A stretch of 34,160 nt of DNA from Candidatus Vogelbacteria bacterium (GTDB lineage Bacteria; Patescibacteriota; Minisyncoccia; Phycocordibacterales; UBA12445): NCBI GenBank assembly GCA_016215345.1, contig JACRKD010000026.1, positions 1 to 34,160 on the forward strand. The letters are read 5' to 3'. Positions 6,901 to 33,935 of this stretch are shown here, in pieces. Under the pieces are notes generated by a model. The model did no database searches. It was not told where the DNA came from and saw only the letters and a program-made list of their open reading frames with translations. The translations under genes and the position numbers were made by a program. Numbering within the stretch: the first letter of the stretch is position 1; each line of letters starts with the position of its first letter.

Positions 6901-7563
6901 ATGAGGAATTTTTCTTTTGAAGAAGGGGGGTATTATCATGTTTATAATAGAGGTGTTGATAAACGTCAGATCGTTATGGATGATTACGATAGTGGGCGTT
7001 TCGTGCAGGGACTCACGGAGTTTAACGTTGTCGAGCCGATTGGAAGTATTTATGAAAATTCATTTAAAAAGACTCAGGATCAACTTAGGTACTTAGTTCC
7101 CAAGTCTGGTGGGCTTGTGAATATAATTTGTTATTGTTTAAATCCCAATCATTTTCATTTACTACTTCAGCCGATTTCTGAGAGGGGAATAGAAAAATTT
7201 ATGCATAAATTGGGATTGGGATACACAAACTATTTTAATAAAAAGCATAAGAGATCCGGGGCGTTGTTTCAGGGGACTTTTAAGGCAAAACATGTTTTTA
7301 CAGATGGCTATATTCAACACTTAAGCGCTTATATAAATTTAAACAATCTGGTTCATAAAATAGAGGGGGAGCCATCAAAATTAGTTCGCTCAAGCTGGGA
7401 AGAGTACGCAGAAGATAAAAAGTCGATTTGTCGTAAGGATATAATCTTAGATCAATTTGGCGATGCACGAGAATACAAAACATATTGTACTGACGTTTTG
7501 CCTATGTTAATAGAGAATAAAAGTTTAGCAAAGGAACTTCGGGAGTTGGGTTTTGAAGAATAA
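6901..7563 (+). CDS. REP-associated tyrosine transposase (RAYT-2)
   Basis: A 220-aa paralogue of RAYT-1. It has GGYYHVYNRGVDKR at residues 9-22, the HUH motif His84-Phe-His86 in PNHFHLLLQ, then GLGYTNYFNKKHKRSGALFQGTFKAKH and a YINLNN segment. The catalytic Tyr is probably in GYTNYFN. Residues about 62-69 (LRYLVPKS) are encoded by a diverged but full-length copy of the element's own 23-nt palindrome, 16-22 residues before the HUH motif, as in RAYT-1. The ATG follows a -10 box by 6 nt and there is no SD. The gene sits between two copies of the palindrome and two copies of the folD 3' end. RAYT-1 and RAYT-2 share the family blocks but differ strongly in palindrome sequence, so they are separate lineages with separate targets. 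Confidence 0.92.
   Translation: MRNFSFEEGGYYHVYNRGVDKRQIVMDDYDSGRFVQGLTEFNVVEPIGSIYENSFKKTQDQLRYLVPKSGGLVNIICYCLNPNHFHLLLQPISERGIEKFMHKLGLGYTNYFNKKHKRSGALFQGTFKAKHVFTDGYIQHLSAYINLNNLVHKIEGEPSKLVRSSWEEYAEDKKSICRKDIILDQFGDAREYKTYCTDVLPMLIENKSLAKELRELGFEE
7083..7105. repeat. internal copy of the RAYT-2 palindrome inside its own ORF
   Basis: ACTTAGGTAC-TTA-GTTCCCAAGT differs from the perfect right-end palindrome (7570-7592) at 3 of 23 positions; the right arm is identical. It is read in frame as part of the transposase just before the HUH motif. Confidence 0.8.
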
Positions 7564-14371: not shown

Positions 14372-14617
14372 GTTAAAACCCCTTAAATAGGGGCTAAGAG
14401 TTCTTTGAAAATTAAGGTTATTGTTAAGTTAAGTAAGTTTGTGCAAATTAAGTAAAGTTATTATTCTTTCTTTTGTTCCGCCTTACCCGCCGAAGTTCCA
14501 TGGGAGCGGAGGAGGGTTAGATTTTGCTCCTCATATTGAGAGTAAAATCAGGGCTACTAAAATTAATTGTCTAAAAGACAATCCGCCGAAGAGGTGGAGA
14601 TAAGTTAGTTCAAATTC
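14372..14617 (+). other. 16S rRNA leader
   Basis: This non-coding stretch holds a TTCTTTGAAAATTAAG block (from about 14401) that resembles the boxA-type antitermination/processing element found in rRNA leaders, then the 5' arm of the 23-bp processing stem (14460-14482). A GAGGAGGGTTAGATTTTGCTCCTC hairpin-like segment, split around a short loop near 14508-14530, follows, and TTGTCTAAAAGACAA forms another small hairpin near 14567-14581. No protein gene is visible. Confidence 0.55.
14460..14482 (+). repeat. 5' arm of the 16S processing stem
   Basis: This 23-nt arm is perfectly complementary to 17128-17150. Together they form a long double-stranded stem that loops out the whole 16S precursor, the usual RNase III substrate. 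Confidence 0.9.
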
Positions 14618-14929
14618 TTTTATTAGAGTTTGATCCTAGCTCAGGATGAACGCTGGCGACGTGGATAAGGCATGCAAGTCAAGGGGCTCGCAAGAGCACC
14701 GGCAGACGAGGTAGTAATACGTAGGTACGCACCCCAGAGTCTGGTATAGCTCGTCGAAAGACGGGGTAATCCCAGATGGTTCCGCCGATAAGGCGGATAA
14801 AGGAGCAATTCGCTCTGGGAGCGGCCTGCGGGGTATCAGCTAGTTGGTAAGGTAAAAGCTTACCAAGGCTATGACGCCTAGGGGAGGTGAGAGCCTGACC
14901 CCCACCGATGGTACTGAGACACGGACCAT

Positions 14930-14960
<31 letters not shown>

Positions 14961-15515
14961 CCGCAATGGGCGAAAGCCTGACGGAGCGACGTCGCGTGAT
15001 TGATGAAGTCCCTCTGGGACGTAAAGATCTTTTATAGGGGAGAACGTGGCATTTATGCCACACGATAGTACCTTATGAATAAGGGGTTGCTAAACTCGTG
15101 CCAGCAGCAGCGGTAATACGAGTGCCCCGAGCGTTATCCGGATTTATTGGGCGTAAAGGGTGTGTAGGTGGTTTTGTTAGTCTTTCGTTAAAGCTCTCGG
15201 CTTAACCGGGAAAGTGCGAAAGAAACGGCAAGACTAGAGGGCGCAAGAGGCTTATGGAACTCATGGTGTAGGGGTGAAATCCGTTAATATCATGGGGAAC
15301 ACCGAAGGCGAAGGCAGTAAGCTGGTGCGTTTCTGACACTGAAACACGAAAGCGTGGGTAGCGAATGGGATTAGATACCCCAGTAGTCCACGCCCTAAAC
15401 GATGTTCTCTAGTTTTTCGGAGTATCGACCCTCTGAGAGACAAAGCTAACGCATTAAGAGAACCGCCTGGGTAGTACGGCCGCAAGGCTGAAACTCAAAG
15501 GAATAGACGGGGACT

Positions 15516-15550
<35 letters not shown>

Positions 15551-16059
15551 GCAACCGAGGAACCTCACCAGGGTTTGAAATGCTGTCAAAAATTTCGTGA
15601 AAGCGAAATGTGTTCACAAGACGGTCAGCACAGGTACTGCATGGCCCTCGTCAGTTCGTGGCGTAAGCTGTTCCCTTAAGTGGGGTAACGAACGCAACCC
15701 TCGTCGTGTGTTATATGTGTCACACGAGACTGCCACGTTTATCGTGGAGGAAGCGAGGATGACGCCAAGTCAGCATGACCCTTTGATATCTTGGGCTACA
15801 CGCATCATACAATGGCTGGTACAACGAGTTGCAACACCGAAAGATGAAGCTAACCTCAATAAAGCCAGCCCCAGTTCGGATAGAGGTCTGCAACCCGACC
15901 TCTTGAAGCCGGAATCGCTAGTAATCGCAGGTCAGACATACTGCGGTGAATACGTTCTCAAGTCTTGTACTCACTGCCCGTCAAGTCAGGGGAGCTGGTA
16001 GTACCTGAAGTCCCATTTCGGTGGGGTCAAGGTAAGATCGGTGACAAGGATTAAGTCGT

Positions 16060-16855
16060 CGCGGCATACTGCCGTTGTTGCGACCTTGAAGGAGTAATCC
16101 TTCTCGACGAAAATTGGCTATTTGCTGGAATCCCTGCGTATCTCACGCTACTCGTTTAATGATATACTTCATGCGATGAGTGATAATGTGTTGAGTGAAG
16201 CAGAAAATCAGCAGGGAAGGCTCGTAGAAACACGGGAACCCTCAGAGACTACACGCCAATCTCCGCTAAAAGCTAAGATGACAAGGAATGAAATCCTTGC
16301 CTATTTACAAGGTGCGATGCATGATGCATCCCTTAATAAGGGGACGCGAATACGTTTTACCCAAAAGAATCGTGGCTGGTTGGTAATTCTTCAAGAATTA
16401 CTTGCTAAAATTGGTTCAAAATCTTGGATATACCAAGAGGGTAAACAAAGAAATGTATATGCTCTTGAAACAGTAACTAAGGAATTAAGTTTTACATTTC
16501 AAGCTTCGAATATAAGGGGTTCAAAATGCATGAAAGCTTATATTCGAGGATTCTTCGATGCAGAGGGAGGGATTCCGCATACACGTGACAGATTCTATAT
16601 CCAGTTGGTTCAAAAGAACTGGAAGAAGGTAGAAGAATTGAAGCGAATGTTGGAACATCTTGGTATCGGAAGTGGTAAAATTCATAATCCTAGTAAGAAG
16701 ATTGATCCAAATTATTGGAGACTATTTATTGCATCTGCAGATCATAAAAAGTTTGCAACTGAAATAAATTCGCTTCATCCAGTAAAACGGAAAATCTTCA
16801 AAGAGCGGATGATGATATAGTCCATGCCTTATGGCGACATAAGGGTAAAAACATG
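16060..16855 (+). mobile_element. group I self-splicing intron in 16S rRNA (after position 1498)
   Basis: A 796-nt intron. The 5' splice site is set by P1: exon GTCGT (ending T16059) pairs with internal guide GCGAC (16080-16084), placing the required U-G wobble at the cut. Core elements are a Q-like AATCAGCAGG (about 16207), the R element CAGAGACTACACG (from about 16244) and the S element GATATAGTCC (16814-16823); GACTA and TAGTC form P7. P9 is CCTTAT-GGCGAC-ATAAGG (from about 16826), and the terminal G is G16855. The HEG lies between R and S, that is in the P8 region. Introns and LAGLIDADG ORFs in 16S genes are known for CPR bacteria. Confidence 0.9.
16278..16820 (+). CDS. LAGLIDADG homing endonuclease inside the 16S intron
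   Basis: A 180-aa protein with two LAGLIDADG helices: a degenerate first one, ILAYLQGAMHDAS, near residues 5-17, and a clear second one, YIRGFFDAEGGI, near residue 91. Spacing and length fit a single-chain, two-motif enzyme, which cuts an intron-less 16S allele and so drives intron copying. The frame is open further upstream to 16122, but that part is the catalytic core (Q and R elements), so the ATG at 16278, just after P7, is preferred. The stop TAG is part of the S element. No SD is visible. The Asp/Glu residues expected at the motif ends are present in helix 2 (DAEG) and partly in helix 1 (HDAS). Some such proteins also act as maturases. Confidence 0.88.
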   Translation: MTRNEILAYLQGAMHDASLNKGTRIRFTQKNRGWLVILQELLAKIGSKSWIYQEGKQRNVYALETVTKELSFTFQASNIRGSKCMKAYIRGFFDAEGGIPHTRDRFYIQLVQKNWKKVEELKRMLEHLGIGSGKIHNPSKKIDPNYWRLFIASADHKKFATEINSLHPVKRKIFKERMMI

Positions 16856-16899
16856 AACAAGGCACGGGTAGCGGAAGCTGCTCGTGGATTATTTTAAAG

Positions 16900-17127
16900 T
16901 ACAAAACTAAGTCGAAAGATTTAGTAAAGAAGGTTGATAGTCAGCCCTAGGCTGATTGGACCATGGTTCTAAGTGTCTTAAAAGAACTGCTTCCTCAAGA
17001 AGCTTCGACCGCTTTGGCGGAAGATAAATTGAGACTAACCTTAATTTTCTAGTGGCTTAGGCTCGCCATTTCTCGGTGATCTACTAGCGGACTGTGTTCG
17101 CCGTAGCTCGTCGTTTCGGCGAGCGTA
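16900..17127 (+). other. 16S 3' trailer, no gene
   Basis: This part of the precursor lies between the mature 3' end and the 3' arm of the processing stem. It contains small hairpins such as CAGCCC-TAG-GCTG (about 16942) and AGCTTCGACC-type pairing near 17000. It holds no CCTCC sequence that could act as a displaced anti-SD and no convincing ORF. Confidence 0.5.
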
Positions 17128-17150
17128 GGCGGAACAAAAGAAAGAATAAT
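17128..17150 (+). repeat. 3' arm of the 16S processing stem
   Basis: Exact reverse complement of 14460-14482 over all 23 nt. It encloses leader, exons, intron and trailer, and so independently marks the extent of the rRNA precursor. Confidence 0.9.
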
Positions 17151-17156
17151 ATAAAC

Positions 17157-23440: not shown

Positions 23441-24649
23441 ATGAACGGCATGAAGCGTGATTTTACTTCGGTGGCAGAAGAAAAGAATAAAAAAATATTT
23501 CCGAGTTTTTTCTTACTGTTTTTATCTGTTATTCTTACTGTTTTGATTTTTAACTATGAGAATATCTCTAGTTTTGCCAATCAAGCGGCCGTGGGTTACG
23601 TTACACCGTTCGAGACGATTATCGTTAACGTGGACGCGGCTAAGCCGATGCATATTAAAACACCTGAGTCAGTTAAGGCAATATATATGTCGAGCTGGGT
23701 AGCCGGTTCGCCGGTCTATAGAAAAAGGTTGGTCGACATGATCGAGAGCACGGAACTGAATTCTGTTGTTATCGATGTTAAGGATTCAACCGGGAAGATT
23801 GCTTTTGAGATGGAAGATCCGTTGGTGAAAAGTATTGGCGCTTTTGAAAATCGCATGCCCGATGCCAGGAGTTTCATAAAGAGTTTGCATGAGAAGAATA
23901 TTTATGTGATTGCGCGAATCGCGGTATTTCAAGACCCTCATGTAACTAAGGTTCAGCCGGAGTGGGCGGTTAGGACGAAAAAAACTGGAGCTATCTGGAA
24001 AGACCGAAATGGTTTATCGTGGGCGAATATGGCTTCGAGAGAGTTTTGGGATTATATAGTTGCCATTGCTCGTGAGTCTTATAAGGCCGGTTTCGATGAG
24101 CTGAATTTCGATTATGTGAGGTTCCCGTCAGACGGCAACATGATAGACATAGCGTATCCTGGTTTCGACGAGGGGATGGTAACGAAGGCCGAACAACTGC
24201 GCCGTTTCTTTGAATATCTTTCGGAGAACCTAAGGTTAACTAAGGCGCCACTCTCGGTTGATTTATTTGGTATGACAACGACTAATACCGACGATTTAAA
24301 TATCGGTCAGGTTCTTGAGAACGCGCTTCCGTATTTCGATTACGTTGCCCCCATGGTTTATCCATCTCATTACCCGCCAACTTTCAATGGATGGAAAAAG
24401 CTGGCTACTGTGCCTTATGAATTAATAAAGTTTGTCATGGAGGAGGGGGTTAAGAGAACTATCGCCGCGAGTTTCTCACCAAACAAACTTCGCCCCTGGC
24501 TCCAAGACTTCGATCTCGGCGCTATCTATACTGCGCCTATGGTTAGGGATCAGATCCAGGCCACTTACGATGTCGGCCTAAATTCATGGATGCTTTGGGA
24601 CGCTGGGAACAAATATACGCTGTCTGTCCTGGAGCCGGAAGTTAAATAA
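23441..24649 (+). CDS. DUF4015-type putative glycoside hydrolase, membrane anchored
   Basis: A 402-aa protein. Residues about 20-40 (FPSFFLLFLSVILTVLIFNY) form an N-terminal signal anchor. The outer domain matches the PF13200 (putative glycosyl hydrolase) family: VKAIYMSSWVAGSP, LNSVVIDVKDSTGKIAFE, IYVIARIAVFQDPH, WKDRNGLSWANMASREFWDYI, GFDELNFDYVRFPSDG, LSVDLFGMTT and FDYVAPMVYPSHYPP. It is a TIM-barrel fold and probably acts on a cell-wall or surface glycan. The ATG at 23441 has no SD. Its stop codon lies inside the left arm of an inverted-repeat element (24648-24729). Confidence 0.85.
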   Translation: MNGMKRDFTSVAEEKNKKIFPSFFLLFLSVILTVLIFNYENISSFANQAAVGYVTPFETIIVNVDAAKPMHIKTPESVKAIYMSSWVAGSPVYRKRLVDMIESTELNSVVIDVKDSTGKIAFEMEDPLVKSIGAFENRMPDARSFIKSLHEKNIYVIARIAVFQDPHVTKVQPEWAVRTKKTGAIWKDRNGLSWANMASREFWDYIVAIARESYKAGFDELNFDYVRFPSDGNMIDIAYPGFDEGMVTKAEQLRRFFEYLSENLRLTKAPLSVDLFGMTTTNTDDLNIGQVLENALPYFDYVAPMVYPSHYPPTFNGWKKLATVPYELIKFVMEEGVKRTIAASFSPNKLRPWLQDFDLGAIYTAPMVRDQIQATYDVGLNSWMLWDAGNKYTLSVLEPEVK

Positions 24650-24729
24650 GAAACTAAGTTAATTATATGCTAAAAAGTCCATATTTTGCATCATATATTT
24701 CGTATACCAGAGCATTAACTTAGTTTCTT
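24648..24729. repeat. 82-bp inverted-repeat element, copy A
   Basis: 16-bp perfect arms, AAGAAACTAAGTTAAT (24648-24663) and ATTAACTTAGTTTCTT (24714-24729), around a 50-nt core. A second element with the same arms and an unrelated 49-nt core lies at 25711-25789. The two enclose a two-gene cassette. It resembles a MITE or REPIN. Confidence 0.85.
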
Positions 24730-24742
24730 TTTTGCATTACCC

Positions 24743-24770
24743 TTGACTTTTTCTGTTATTGTGCTAGACT
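24743..24770 (+). promoter_or_regulatory. sigma70 promoter of the cassette
   Basis: TTGACT (24743-24748), 16-nt spacer, TAGACT (24765-24770), 13 nt inside the left inverted-repeat element and about 50 nt before the first cassette SD. Confidence 0.6.
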
Positions 24771-24827
24771 CGAAAGAGTTTCTGGCTATCCGCCTAGATA
24801 GAACGCACATCGAAAGGAGAATAGGAT

Positions 24828-25043
24828 ATGATGCCCAAGTACGCAACGCACTGCCAGATTGCCGGGTGTGGCAAGGAGATCGAGGTCACGAAGGAGGAAT
24901 TCGAGTCTCATCGGGGCTTCCTCGGCGACTGCCCTCAGTGGCCCGTAAACGACGGCTTCACCGGCAACGATCGCGAGTCCGTCCTAGAGTTCGCCAGCGG
25001 TCACGACTTCGATGGGAACCCGATCGACGCAACCCCGAGGTAG
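24828..25043 (+). CDS. small Cys-containing protein, unknown
   Basis: A 71-aa protein behind AAAGGAG. It has Cys at CQIAGC (spacing four) and CPQW, plus His in KYATHCQ and ESHRGF, so a small zinc-binding fold (C2H2-like) is possible. The acidic tail ends DGNPIDATPR. G+C and codon use are clearly higher than in flanking genes (GAC, GTC, CGC, TTC frequent). It is the first gene of a two-gene cassette between two inverted-repeat elements. No family recognised. A second ATG one codon later is equally possible. Confidence 0.55.
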   Translation: MMPKYATHCQIAGCGKEIEVTKEEFESHRGFLGDCPQWPVNDGFTGNDRESVLEFASGHDFDGNPIDATPR

Positions 25044-25115
25044 TCATTCAACAGAAACAGAACCGGTAACCAATATGTCATCGTGATGATGGCGAGCTGA
25101 AGGAGGAGCGGACAC

Positions 25116-25601
25116 ATGCTTCGAGTGAATTGGTGGCTTGGTGGGTTCGTTGGGTTTCTCATTTTCTCTGCTACGGTTCTCGGTCTTTCGTTCGTGGCCC
25201 TAGCGGTTAACCCGCCTTTCGAGCCATCACTTCGGGTTCAGATTGCGGAGGCGCGCGCAGTGGCCAAGCTCGGCCACCAGACCTCCCTCAACCGTGAGGT
25301 GGCAAAGAAACTCGAGTATGGAGACATCGTGAAGTTCGCCGGTGAACTCTACATCGTTAGGCACAAGGATCAGTACCACGTCGAACTTGGATCGCACGCG
25401 AGTTTCAGGCTGAAGTTCGTGACGCTGAGCCTGGAAGCGGCTGTGCAATTTACTCCGGACAAGTTCCAGATGGTCTGGAAATGTGGAACTCCGGAGTGGC
25501 AGGAGGTGGCCAACAAAATGGTTCTCGGTGAGATGTGGCTGGGCGTAGTAGAAGTAGAGTCTGCACTGACCTCAACCTCACCGGCCGTGTCGCTACGATA
25601 A
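25116..25601 (+). CDS. single-pass membrane protein, unknown
   Basis: A 161-aa protein behind GAAGGAGGAG. Residues about 7-31 (WLGGFVGFLIFSATVLGLSF...) are a membrane helix or signal anchor. The rest has a short beta-type segment YGDIVKFAGELYIVRHKDQY followed by HVELGSHASFRLKFVTLSL, like a small SH3-type or OB-type barrel. The tail is Ser/Thr-rich. Codon use is GC-rich like the preceding gene, and both end at a shared terminator. No family recognised. Confidence 0.55.
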   Translation: MLRVNWWLGGFVGFLIFSATVLGLSFVALAVNPPFEPSLRVQIAEARAVAKLGHQTSLNREVAKKLEYGDIVKFAGELYIVRHKDQYHVELGSHASFRLKFVTLSLEAAVQFTPDKFQMVWKCGTPEWQEVANKMVLGEMWLGVVEVESALTSTSPAVSLR

Positions 25602-25626
25602 CCCCATATCCAAATCCCTTAAAGGG

Positions 25627-25661
25627 TGCCTGGAGTCGAAAGACCCCGGGCTTTTTCTTTT
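25627..25661 (+). terminator. rho-independent terminator of the cassette
   Basis: GCCTGGAGTC-GAAA-GACCCCGGGC, a 10-bp stem with one mismatch and a GAAA loop, followed by TTTTTCTTTT. Confidence 0.85.
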
Positions 25662-25710
25662 GTTTAAAATGTCCGAGGTCTCGCCTTGGATATTTGCATT
25701 GTGGGAGTTT

Positions 25711-25789
25711 AGAAACTAAGTTAATGCATTGGTACAAAAGATATCTATGGCTAAGAGAGATTTACCACCACATAATTAACTTAGTTTCT
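25711..25789. repeat. 79-bp inverted-repeat element, copy B
   Basis: 15-bp arms, AGAAACTAAGTTAAT (25711-25725) and ATTAACTTAGTTTCT (25775-25789), identical to those of copy A, around an unrelated 49-nt core. The spacing of arms is almost the same as in copy A. Confidence 0.85.
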
Positions 25790-25836: not shown

Positions 25837-27789
25837 ATGTCGGAGTTTCCCAACAAGGATGTTACATATTTTGCCGAAGCTGATTTCCGCAATAAGGGGG
25901 TTAGATTTGGCATAAAATCTCTCGATAGGACGAGGCATTTTTATGTTATTGGGAAGACCGGCTTCGGAAAGTCCACCCTTCTTGAGAATATGACGATTCA
26001 GGATATTGATAATAATAATGGTGTCGGCTATATGGATCCACACGGAAAATCGGCTGAACTCTTCCTTGATTACATTCCGAAAGAAAGGATAAAAGATGTC
26101 ATTTATTTCGCGCCCCATGACATGGAATACCCCTTTGCCTTTAACGTCATGGAGGACGTGGGGAAAGACCAAAGACACCTCGTGGCGAATGGACTTATGG
26201 CGGCCTTCAAGAAGATCTGGCCGGATGTTTGGTCGGCTCGTATGGAATATATCTCCACTAATATTATTCTGGCGCTTTTGGAATATCCGGATTCGACCAT
26301 GCTTGGAGTAAACCGAATGCTTTCAGATAAGGCGTACAGAAATAAAGTTGTCGCGTATATTACAGATCCTTCCGTTAAATCCTTTTGGGTCGATGAATAT
26401 GCGAAATACGGCGAGAAGCTGATGGCCGAGGCTTCCGCTTCGATCCAAAATAAATTTGGGCAGTTTATTTCCAACCCGCTCATTAGAAATATTCTTGGGC
26501 AACCTAAGTCCACCTTTAATCTGCGTGACGTGATGGACGGCAAAAAGATTCTTATTATGAATCTCTCAAAGGGGCAGATGGGAGAGATTAACGCGAACCT
26601 CATAGGAGGTATGCTTATTACAAAAATATATCTTGCCGCCATGTCTCGCGCTGGTGATAGCGCCGAAGCCCAGGATAAACTCCCGCCATTTTATTTCTTT
26701 GTAGACGAGTTTCAGTCTTTCGTTAACGAATCGTTTAAGGATATTTTGTCGGAAGCTAGAAAATATAAATTGGCATTAACAATCGCGCACCAATATATTG
26801 AGCAAGTCCCTGAGGAGGTGAGGAACGCGGTCTTTGGAAACGTTGGAACGCTGGTTACTTTTAGGGTTGGTCCGCTCGATGCCGAAATGTTTGAAAAAGT
26901 TTTTACCCCGAAGTTTCTAGCGGCCGATCTTGTGAATCTTGGTTTCGCCCAGATATATTTAACTCTCATGATAGACGGCGTAGGCTCTCAACCGTTCTCT
27001 GCCAAGACTATGGGGCCCATTAAAAAGCCCGATGTATCTTACAGACAAGAAGTGATAGATCACTCGAGAAAAACTTACGCGAAGCCTCGCGCAGAGGTTG
27101 AGGCTGACATCGCCAAGTGGTACGCTTCTGGGACGGAAGATGTTCCTGCCGCTCTCGCCAAATTTGTCCCTCTGGGCCGGAGTGACAACCAGTCCGCTAA
27201 GCCTGCCTTTTCTCAAGACAAGAGGCCGACGTCCTCATCGTCGATAGGAGGAGTTCGACCCATCCCCCCGCCAATCCCGAGACCCCTTATGTCAAGACCG
27301 CCAGCCCCCACCCTTAACTCGACGAGAGGAGGCCCACCATCTTCACCTAGGGCGGGTGGTTTTCCCGCTAGATCCGGTTCACCCTCACTTGGAGGTCGAA
27401 CCTCCAACGGGAGGTTCGACCTCCAAGTACCAGTGGCACCAAAGATGTCTCTTTCAGAGTTACAGGGGAATAAGCCAATACAGCCAGTAGAAAAGTTCAC
27501 AGGCAGGAATGTCCCGGATCTCAAGAAAGCCATAGAAGAGGCTATGAGAAATAACAAGCCTAGCCAAGTAGCGCACGGGGTGAGCCTATCGAACCAGCCA
27601 AAAGTTGAGGCTAAAATAGGCGAGGCGATGCGGGCCAAGGCACCTGAGTCGATGGAGTCAGCCACGCAAATTTCATCTGTGGCCAAGGAGGAAAATAAGC
27701 CTATCGACTTCGCGGAAGCCAAGTCGGTTAAAGAGGTTCCGGAAGAGGTTTTAAGAAAGATTTTGGGGTCAGATGATATTGGCAAATAA
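25837..27789 (+). CDS. TraD/VirD4-like DNA-translocating ATPase (type IV secretion family)
   Basis: A 650-aa P-loop ATPase. Walker A is GKTGFGKST (residues 39-47), followed by GVGYMDPHGKSAELFL and the Walker B FYFFVDEF near residue 290; LALTIAHQYIEQVPEEVRNAVFGNVGTLVTFRV is typical of TraD/TraG C-terminal (TraM recognition) domains and HerA-like pumps. No N-terminal membrane helices are present, so it would be a soluble hexameric motor. From about residue 445 the chain is Pro/Ser/Arg-rich and disordered, and a perfect 19-bp palindrome is inserted in frame there (27387-27428). No other T4SS gene is in the window, so the role could be DNA uptake, pilus-linked or conjugal transfer. Start leaderless behind TATAAT. 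Confidence 0.85.
   Translation: MSEFPNKDVTYFAEADFRNKGVRFGIKSLDRTRHFYVIGKTGFGKSTLLENMTIQDIDNNNGVGYMDPHGKSAELFLDYIPKERIKDVIYFAPHDMEYPFAFNVMEDVGKDQRHLVANGLMAAFKKIWPDVWSARMEYISTNIILALLEYPDSTMLGVNRMLSDKAYRNKVVAYITDPSVKSFWVDEYAKYGEKLMAEASASIQNKFGQFISNPLIRNILGQPKSTFNLRDVMDGKKILIMNLSKGQMGEINANLIGGMLITKIYLAAMSRAGDSAEAQDKLPPFYFFVDEFQSFVNESFKDILSEARKYKLALTIAHQYIEQVPEEVRNAVFGNVGTLVTFRVGPLDAEMFEKVFTPKFLAADLVNLGFAQIYLTLMIDGVGSQPFSAKTMGPIKKPDVSYRQEVIDHSRKTYAKPRAEVEADIAKWYASGTEDVPAALAKFVPLGRSDNQSAKPAFSQDKRPTSSSSIGGVRPIPPPIPRPLMSRPPAPTLNSTRGGPPSSPRAGGFPARSGSPSLGGRTSNGRFDLQVPVAPKMSLSELQGNKPIQPVEKFTGRNVPDLKKAIEEAMRNNKPSQVAHGVSLSNQPKVEAKIGEAMRAKAPESMESATQISSVAKEENKPIDFAEAKSVKEVPEEVLRKILGSDDIGK
27387..27428. repeat. 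perfect 19-bp palindrome inside the ATPase gene
   Basis: ACTTGGAGGTCGAACCTCC (27387-27405), spacer AACG, then GGAGGTTCGACCTCCAAGT (27410-27428). It is read in frame as about SLGGRTSNGRFDLQV within the disordered linker. The size and form match RAYT/REP hairpins, but no RAYT with this palindrome is in the window. Confidence 0.88.
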
Positions 27790-32844: not shown

Positions 32845-33072
32845 ATGGATGCGCTCAATCAGCTCACCGGAGCTCTGGGAAGCCTTTCGGGTCTGGCTCG
32901 TGGCGCGGCTCAAGCCGCTGCCGCTTTGGCCCTGATCGGTCTCCTCTGGGACCCCGCGCTCGGCGTTGCCAGGTCGCTCGTCGCCGCCGGTTCGGCTGTT
33001 ACAGCTGGGCCTGCCGGCATGGGCCTTCTGGTCTGCCTCGGCGTTCTCTGGCTTTGCGACAGGAAGGCCTGA
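32845..33072 (+). CDS. tiny Ala/Gly-rich two-helix membrane peptide
   Basis: A 75-aa peptide behind a textbook AAAGGAGGTGAT site. It starts MDALNQLTGALGSLSGLARG and contains two hydrophobic stretches (AAQAAAALALIGLLW, and AGMGLLVCLGVLWLC) joined by a Gly/Ala-rich turn. The shape is that of small pilin-like (VirB2), holin-like or bacteriocin-like peptides, but no family is recognised. A strong terminator follows 20 nt after the stop. G+C is far above the neighbours. Expression is probably high. Confidence 0.6.
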   Translation: MDALNQLTGALGSLSGLARGAAQAAAALALIGLLWDPALGVARSLVAAGSAVTAGPAGMGLLVCLGVLWLCDRKA

Positions 33073-33205: not shown

Positions 33206-33246
33206 AATGTCAGACTTTATGTAACGGCCGTGGATAAAATGTTGAC
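33206..33246 (+). repeat. 41-bp direct repeat, copy 1 (promoter region of the Cas2-like regulator)
   Basis: Identical at 40 of 41 positions to 33895-33935. It contains the 8-bp palindrome ACGGCCGT and ends in TTGAC, a -35-like box 25 nt before the ATG at 33271. Confidence 0.85.
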
Positions 33247-33270
33247 TTTTTAAAAGCCCTAAATCTTACA

Positions 33271-33867
33271 ATGAAAATTAATGAAAATAAAAAAACTATA
33301 TCGCAGCTTTTGTTAGCCATACTTAAATATGGTGTTGCTACGACCATAGATATCACATGGGCCATGTCTGCATCGAAGTCGGCTTCACGTATGAGGTGGG
33401 CACATCTTCGCGGTAATCCAGATAGTTCCATCGGCAAACGATTTGTTGCTGACCTTGAGTACAACCGTGAAGAATATAAAAGATATCACGCCTTACTTAG
33501 TAGGCTTAAAGAACAAGGATTGGTTGAAACTAATATTATTGGGTCAGATAGAGTCTGGTCAATAACAAAGTCTGGCTTGTCTTTTATGCGGCCCAAGGAA
33601 AACAAGATTAATAACGCTGGGGCGTTATCTGTTACAGGCAACCCGACGATTATAAGTTATGATATTCCCGAAAGAATGCGACGCGAAAGGGATAGAATTC
33701 GTGAAACTCTTAAGCTCATGGGGTTTGAGCAAGTCCACCAGAGTGTTTGGTTCGGCAATCGGAAAGTAACTAAACAGTTTTTAGCGCTACTTCGTGCCCG
33801 GCAGATTTTTGGCTACATACATATTTTTGAAATTAATAAGACGGGGACACTGAAGCGGCTCGACTAA
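33271..33867 (+). CDS. PaaX/Cas2-like wHTH regulator
   Basis: A 198-aa protein. Residues 1-115 include winged-helix-like parts (TISQLLLAILKYGVATTIDI, YHALLSRLKEQGLVETNI, VWSITKSGLSFMRP). From about 128 comes a Cas2-like ferredoxin fold: PTIISYDIPERMRRERDRIR, ETLKLMGFEQVHQSVWFGNR, ending GYIHIFEINKTG. That combination is the PaaX-type layout, a transcription factor family whose C-domain is homologous to Cas2. No CRISPR array or other cas gene is nearby. The 41-bp repeats on both sides of the gene are likely operator sites. No SD. Confidence 0.75.
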   Translation: MKINENKKTISQLLLAILKYGVATTIDITWAMSASKSASRMRWAHLRGNPDSSIGKRFVADLEYNREEYKRYHALLSRLKEQGLVETNIIGSDRVWSITKSGLSFMRPKENKINNAGALSVTGNPTIISYDIPERMRRERDRIRETLKLMGFEQVHQSVWFGNRKVTKQFLALLRARQIFGYIHIFEINKTGTLKRLD

Positions 33868-33894
33868 TTTTTTTGTATGTAACTTAAAATTATA

Positions 33895-33935
33895 AATGTC
33901 AGACTTTATTTAACGGCCGTGGATAAAATGTTGAC
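33895..33935 (+). repeat. 41-bp direct repeat, copy 2 (upstream of the IS200-like element)
   Basis: Second copy of the 33206-33246 repeat with one substitution. The TTGAC at its end continues into TTGACA (33931-33936), followed 16 nt later by TATCTA (33953-33958), a possible promoter. Confidence 0.85.

Follow-up and report, generated by a model that had tools for sequence, protein, structure and literature searches.

The window, i.e. the whole stretch of 34,160 nucleotides analysed here, corresponds to contig C19 of genome G000 (704,745 bp in 44 contigs, 95% complete, 43.3% GC). The small genome, its gene content and the similar genome sizes of its relatives point to a Patescibacteria/CPR bacterium. 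A gene coding for a DUF4015 putative glycosyl hydrolase (23441–24649, plus strand; Pfam PF13200, E 1.6e-96) and a gene coding for a TraG/VirD4-like ATPase (25837–27789, plus strand; Pfam T4SS-DNA_transf, E 1.6e-6) are the left and right neighbours of a two-gene mini-operon, which is bracketed by two short inverted-repeat elements, termed E1 and E2. E1 (24649–24728, plus strand, 80 nt) is a perfect inverted repeat with the arms AGAAACTAAGTTAAT / ATTAACTTAGTTTCT; its first base is also the final one of the DUF4015 stop codon, and inclusion of a 16th, outer A-T pair extends it to 82 nt (24648–24729). E2 (25711–25789, 79 nt) carries the arms of E1 and is assigned to the minus strand, inverted with respect to E1, on the basis of core alignment and model score. 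Paired elements of 82 and 79 bp with identical arms, the left one beginning at the stop codon of the preceding gene, had been described in the initial annotation and are recovered here.

Gene 1 (24828–25043, plus strand) codes for a cysteine-containing small protein of 71 aa, and gene 2 (25116–25601, plus strand) for a protein of 161 aa with an N-terminal hydrophobic segment; as proposed, both are SD-led, with AAAGGAG at 24813–24819 and AAGGAGG at 25100–25106, respectively. The postulated promoter can be placed at 24743–24770 on the plus strand (TTGACT-16-TAGACT with an extended -10, 9/12), but the finding of one such site compares with 1.4 expected in shuffles and hence is no excess over chance. 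A hairpin with a T run, resembling the claimed intrinsic terminator, is located 3′ of gene 2 (25628–25660, plus strand; RNA fold -19.2 kcal/mol), but is not listed by the consensus terminator scan. The inter-element DNA is indeed GC-rich (53.6% vs 43.3% for the genome). Foreign codon use, which had been ascribed to both genes, was measured for gene 2 only; this gene is a GC3/codon-usage outlier, with about 1% of long ORFs showing higher GC3, but GC-rich orphan genes of this type are common in G000 and in the order. Neither gene matched a curated family. Gene 1 lacks matches in Pfam, NCBIfam and PADLOC, showing similarity to phrog_9706 only (E 0.003), and no homologues were found in plasmids or viral contigs; for gene 2, none were found in phages, viral contigs or the PDB. 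A distant homologue of gene 2 (33%, E 1.9e-10) is present in G002, a genome of a sister genus in the same family, at another locus near tRNA-Gly, where a promoter-like site, an SD and a terminator-like hairpin of its own accompany it; a model search of this locus detected no element. Among 49 GC-rich clusters of G000, the E1/E2 region alone has a repeat of at least 13 nt common to both flanks. Another GC-rich orphan gene in the style of genes 1 and 2, coding for 75 aa and having both a strong SD and a hairpin resembling a terminator, is located at 32847–33072 of the window.

The DUF4015/TraG-like junction was compared among the 19 relatives whose fetched locus reaches both neighbour genes; the comparison genomes belong to genera other than that of G000, and the closest ones are incomplete. 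The gap between the two genes measures 4–83 nt in nine of these relatives and 157–1221 nt in ten. At least five of the ten long-gap relatives (L126, L141, L145, L147 and L149, and likely L148) carry unrelated small GC-rich operon-like genes, which have their own signals (SD and terminator). The empty sites to be sought in relatives are thus present, the inter-element region being missing from the junction in about half of those examined. The short gaps in nine relatives, together with the unrelated mini-operons in others, identify the DUF4015/TraG-like junction as a hot spot for mini-operon additions across the order, and the two-gene region of G000 as an insertion at this junction. Arm pairs were not found around the junction mini-operons of the relatives. 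Since these mini-operons are unbracketed, and since no element accompanies the gene 2 homologue of G002, the bracket is not the usual arrival route.

The 15-nt arms are identical in E1 and E2. A search of the 704,745-bp genome for the exact 15-nt arm yielded four occurrences, all within E1 and E2, so that the sequence is neither frequent nor unpaired. As the genome contains more than 30 inverted repeats of at least 15 bp with 20–120-nt spacing, the mere presence of an inverted repeat of 15 bp is unremarkable; the arm identity between E1 and E2 is the outstanding, non-chance part of the observation. Both elements passed the suggested folding test: as single-stranded DNA, all four strands gave fold z values of -4.5 to -6.1, and 0/200 shuffles folded as well. 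The cores had been regarded as unrelated. However, the core of E1 and the inverted core of E2 show 61% identity (z 4.1, P 0.0003), whereas their alignment in the forward direction is no better than chance (P 0.10), indicating that a single element is present twice, in opposite orientations, as E1 and E2. Likewise, the covariance-model score of E2 was 97 bits for the minus strand vs 49 bits for the plus strand. Rfam searches of the region at gathering and permissive thresholds gave no credible match, and an exact-arm scan of viral contigs gave scattered single matches, which were taken as chance.

A third clear copy of the element, with the arms AGAAACCGGGTTAAT, is located at C5:3973–4053 between the convergent genes recR and rplU (gene names read from translations); it is absent from the relatives read at that locus. 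A covariance model (R1) built from E1, E2 and the C5 copy matched C3:25057–25136 in G002 (AGAGACCGGGTTAATTATGAAGTAAT...ATTAACCCGGTCTCT) with 46 bits (E 1e-6 per genome). A weak match at C24:4663–4737 of G000 (23 bits, E 0.14) is supported as a copy by alignment of its core with those of E1, E2 and C5 (z 4.0–5.0). G000 thus contains four copies, and G002 contains one plus a half site. The C5, C24 and G002 copies stand alone, without a cassette, which together with the unbracketed mini-operons of relatives and the unbracketed gene 2 homologue speaks against the elements being cassette borders as such. The G002 copy overlaps the start of a prepilin gene; at the corresponding site, G000 carries another hairpin, with arms of 25 bp, and G003 and G004 carry none. 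The exact pattern was found in G000 only. A pattern scan of public genomes gave one real match, JAUSIP010000015.1, which is the G002 sequence (L232); in the remaining matches the arms are not complementary. A rebuilt model applied to a 397-genome sample of the order revealed no convincing copy beyond G000 and G002. Weak model matches in other families of the order were rejected, namely those in G197 (a hairpin adjoining 16S rRNA-like sequence, read by eye) and in G301, G206, G329 and G089 (lacking the core or the pairing), and single arms at G002:C12:17875 and G003:C7:112860 turned out on reading not to be transposon ends. G000 contains no unpaired full arm; the closest genomes, as mentioned, are incomplete.

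Members of the family end in 15-bp inverted repeats (AGAAACnnnGTTAAT), between which lies a core of nearly constant length (about 45–52 nt) and drifting sequence. Changes in the arms keep the pairing (TAA/TTA vs CGG/CCG; A-T vs G-C at position 4): 98.6% of 73 cells are standard pairs, and five pairs are changed on both sides. The covariation score was reached by 0/500 shuffles, and slid partners fall to 27–57% paired. With n = 5 sequences, the covariation evidence is thin, and it could in part reflect palindrome correction by template switching. RNAalifold suggests an inner helix at columns 21–24/59–62, which is not kept in every copy. The repeat is a rare hairpin family of about 80 bp, previously undescribed in the open-access literature; its copies so far occur in two genera of one family and are intergenic, mostly directly after stop codons.

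REPINs consist of 16-nt inverted ends and a length-conserved spacer and show compensatory changes (PMC3116915). E is built in the same way, being an intergenic inverted doublet of about 80–90 bp whose ends (about 16 nt) are conserved and whose spacer is conserved in length, with a hairpin fold and compensatory changes. It differs from REPINs in occurring in a handful of copies (four in 704,745 bp) rather than many, in having arms which are barely self-palindromic (AAC nnn GTT), and in that these arms correspond to the REP of neither RAYT found in the window; the REPs of RAYT-2 are ACTTGGGAACTAAGTTCCCAAGT, the repeats of the RAYT-1 region are TCGGAGATCCGATCTCCGGA, and neither matches. With MITEs, E shares terminal inverted repeats, a short, non-coding sequence within 50–500 bp, the lack of a transposase gene and hence a non-autonomous character, and presence or absence between relatives. 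However, target-site duplications were not found around E1, E2, C5, C24 or the whole 1141-bp unit (flanks GTTAAATA / TTTGTGCC), nor is there a consistent repeat at any copy; no parent transposon with E ends was found, and core divergence by far exceeds that of ordinary MITE families. Tn3-type ends are of the GGGG type; the ends of E (AGAAAC...) are unlike these inverted repeats. TIME-COMPs and the integron mobilization unit (IMU) are defined by passenger genes between two inverted miniature elements (PMC13367494), and E1 and E2 enclose genes in this manner, likewise without a transposase; the differences are the absence of 5-bp direct repeats and the divergence of the E1 and E2 cores by about 40%. 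Given the lack of RAYT-linked ends, many copies, target duplications and Tn3-type ends, E is described as built like a REPIN or MITE, not as being one. The initial annotation had suggested structural recognition as in MITEs or REPINs; the repeated hairpin family, the compensatory arm changes and the near-constant core length are in line with this suggestion, but RAYT-linked ends and target-site duplications are not part of the picture.

We favor, with a probability of about 0.6, the interpretation that a non-coding REPIN/MITE-like repeat, which forms hairpins and is present in few copies, is represented by E1 and E2 in opposite orientations, and that the mini-operon is one of the many of this lineage, added at a hot spot. 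The mini-operon was added at the DUF4015/TraG-like junction, and insertions of E at or with the mini-operon would have given the bracket, which presumably is not a general route of mini-operon arrival. The elements themselves are probably mobile; a mobility enzyme supplied in trans would most likely act on the hairpin in its folded form or on its pair of inverted ends. Compensatory changes keep the terminal inverted repeats paired while the core drifts. The very low copy number, the missing target-site duplications and the failure to find a parent transposon count against such a REPIN/MITE-like mobile reading, and the location of four of the five copies 0–8 nt after stop codons could mean a 3′-end RNA function instead.

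Alternatively, E1, the genes and E2 (24649–25789) might have moved as one piece after the manner of TIME-COMPs and the integron mobilization unit, a transposase working in trans on the outermost ends of the inverted pair of miniature elements. The arms of E1 and E2 are identical, unlike those of the other copies, and the two elements are in inverted orientation; the outer ends coincide with the ancestral junction, E1 beginning at the stop codon and the stretch of 47 nt to the right of E2 matching the 40-nt intergenic length and the TATAATT box of G002; and the chance of two of four randomly placed copies lying this close is roughly estimated as 2–6%. Movement of two-MITE composites which lack flanking repeats has a precedent in the IMU (PMC13367494). 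On the other hand, the E1 and E2 cores differ at about 40% of positions, which indicates that they are not a recent duplicate pair, the unit lacks a duplication of target DNA, brackets are found neither at the unrelated junction mini-operons nor at the G002 homologue of gene 2, and G000 contains no second bracketed unit. A composite mobile unit is a less probable reading, which the data do not need. Still more doubtful is its extended form, in which a composite without a transposase, served in trans, would use two hairpin ends, recognised by structure and drifting in sequence, to bring orphan mini-operons to intergenic junctions in very small genomes. The gain of many small GC-rich orphan genes in bacteria with reduced genomes is poorly understood, and if brackets of the E1/E2 type did move genes, they would represent a concrete route of gene gain. 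At present, the region is above all an example of a junction which varies and gains unrelated mini-operons across an order, and of hairpin repeats which pair despite sequence change.

That the elements are not mobile DNA, but 3′-terminal RNA structures (hairpins serving termination, processing or stability), is suggested by their location. Four of the five copies begin 0–8 nt after a stop codon (E1 at the stop, the C5, C24 and G002 copies 5–8 nt behind it), and of all intergenic positions, about 7% are as close as this to a stop (8 nt or less), as estimated from approximate gene calls with a simple ORF filter. The RNA folds are stable, an inner helix is also suggested, and T runs follow E1 and E2 on the plus strand and the C24 copy on the minus strand. 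The exception in location is E2, which lies 110 nt after gene 2 and 50 nt after an existing terminator-like hairpin. Moreover, the T run is missing at the C5 and G002 copies, a loop of about 50 nt does not suit an intrinsic terminator, orthologous sites in relatives lack the element, and Rfam gave no match. An AT-rich 15-bp stem with such a loop differs from the short-loop, GC-rich stem plus T run of intrinsic terminators. We consider a function confined to RNA unlikely.

The arms of E1 and E2 have the 9-mer AACTAAGTT in common with the REP around RAYT-2 (6901–7563), from which a possible link to this transposase had been derived, and the REPIN layout would fit service by this RAYT. However, the 9-mer occurs 20 times in the genome, the other E copies carry AACCGGGTT, in which its centre is replaced, or no such motif, and the REPs of RAYT-2 itself differ from the E arms, making this link very improbable. 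The R″ and R′ boxes of attC sites read RYYYAAC and GTTRRRY, respectively; the ends of E do not match them. An integron cassette likewise is a small gene unit bounded by hairpin-forming sites, and attC sites are hairpins of 57–142 nt with conserved ends and a variable apex (PMC2727003), a layout which E resembles, including a possible internal loop and inner helix, but the outer stem of E is fully paired, E1 and E2 are inverted where attC sites are direct, and the enclosed genes are served by a promoter-like site and a terminator of their own, so that bounding of a gene cassette by integron-like sites is hardly credible.

Several other repeats were observed in the genome. In the window, a LAGLIDADG-type gene (16122–16820) is located directly 3′ of the 16S rRNA gene (14618–16104), and a perfect 25-bp inverted repeat encloses both (14459–17151), resembling an rRNA processing stem. 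A PaaX/Cas2-like gene at 33271–33867 (Pfam PaaX_M, E 2.4e-13; region 33206–33935), and a second one, similar by eye and with a broken frame, at C15 (L168) 14678–15055 on the minus strand (region 14416–15113), are both flanked by a palindrome family, AATGTCnnACT..ACGnCCGTGG..AGTnnGACATT, which also occurs alone at C36:27194, C36:36357, C40:4715 and C44:165; the layout resembles a RAYT-REP arrangement with a different protein. A hairpin family of exactly 107 nt (C35:5203–5309, C22:6133–6239, C10:4707–4813), found in G000 only among 247 genomes of the order, has arms of 19 bp (ACCCAGCmCCAGTTTTACT), in which a change is compensated, and 69-nt cores which are alike only when oriented (C22 inverted vs C10, z 7.8). 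A more usual MITE is represented by a repeat of 66–87 bp whose arms measure 12 bp (AAATACAAGGTT) and whose core is well conserved; it is present in five copies (C33:17968, C28:1043, C17:21057, C15:6513 and C12:6890).
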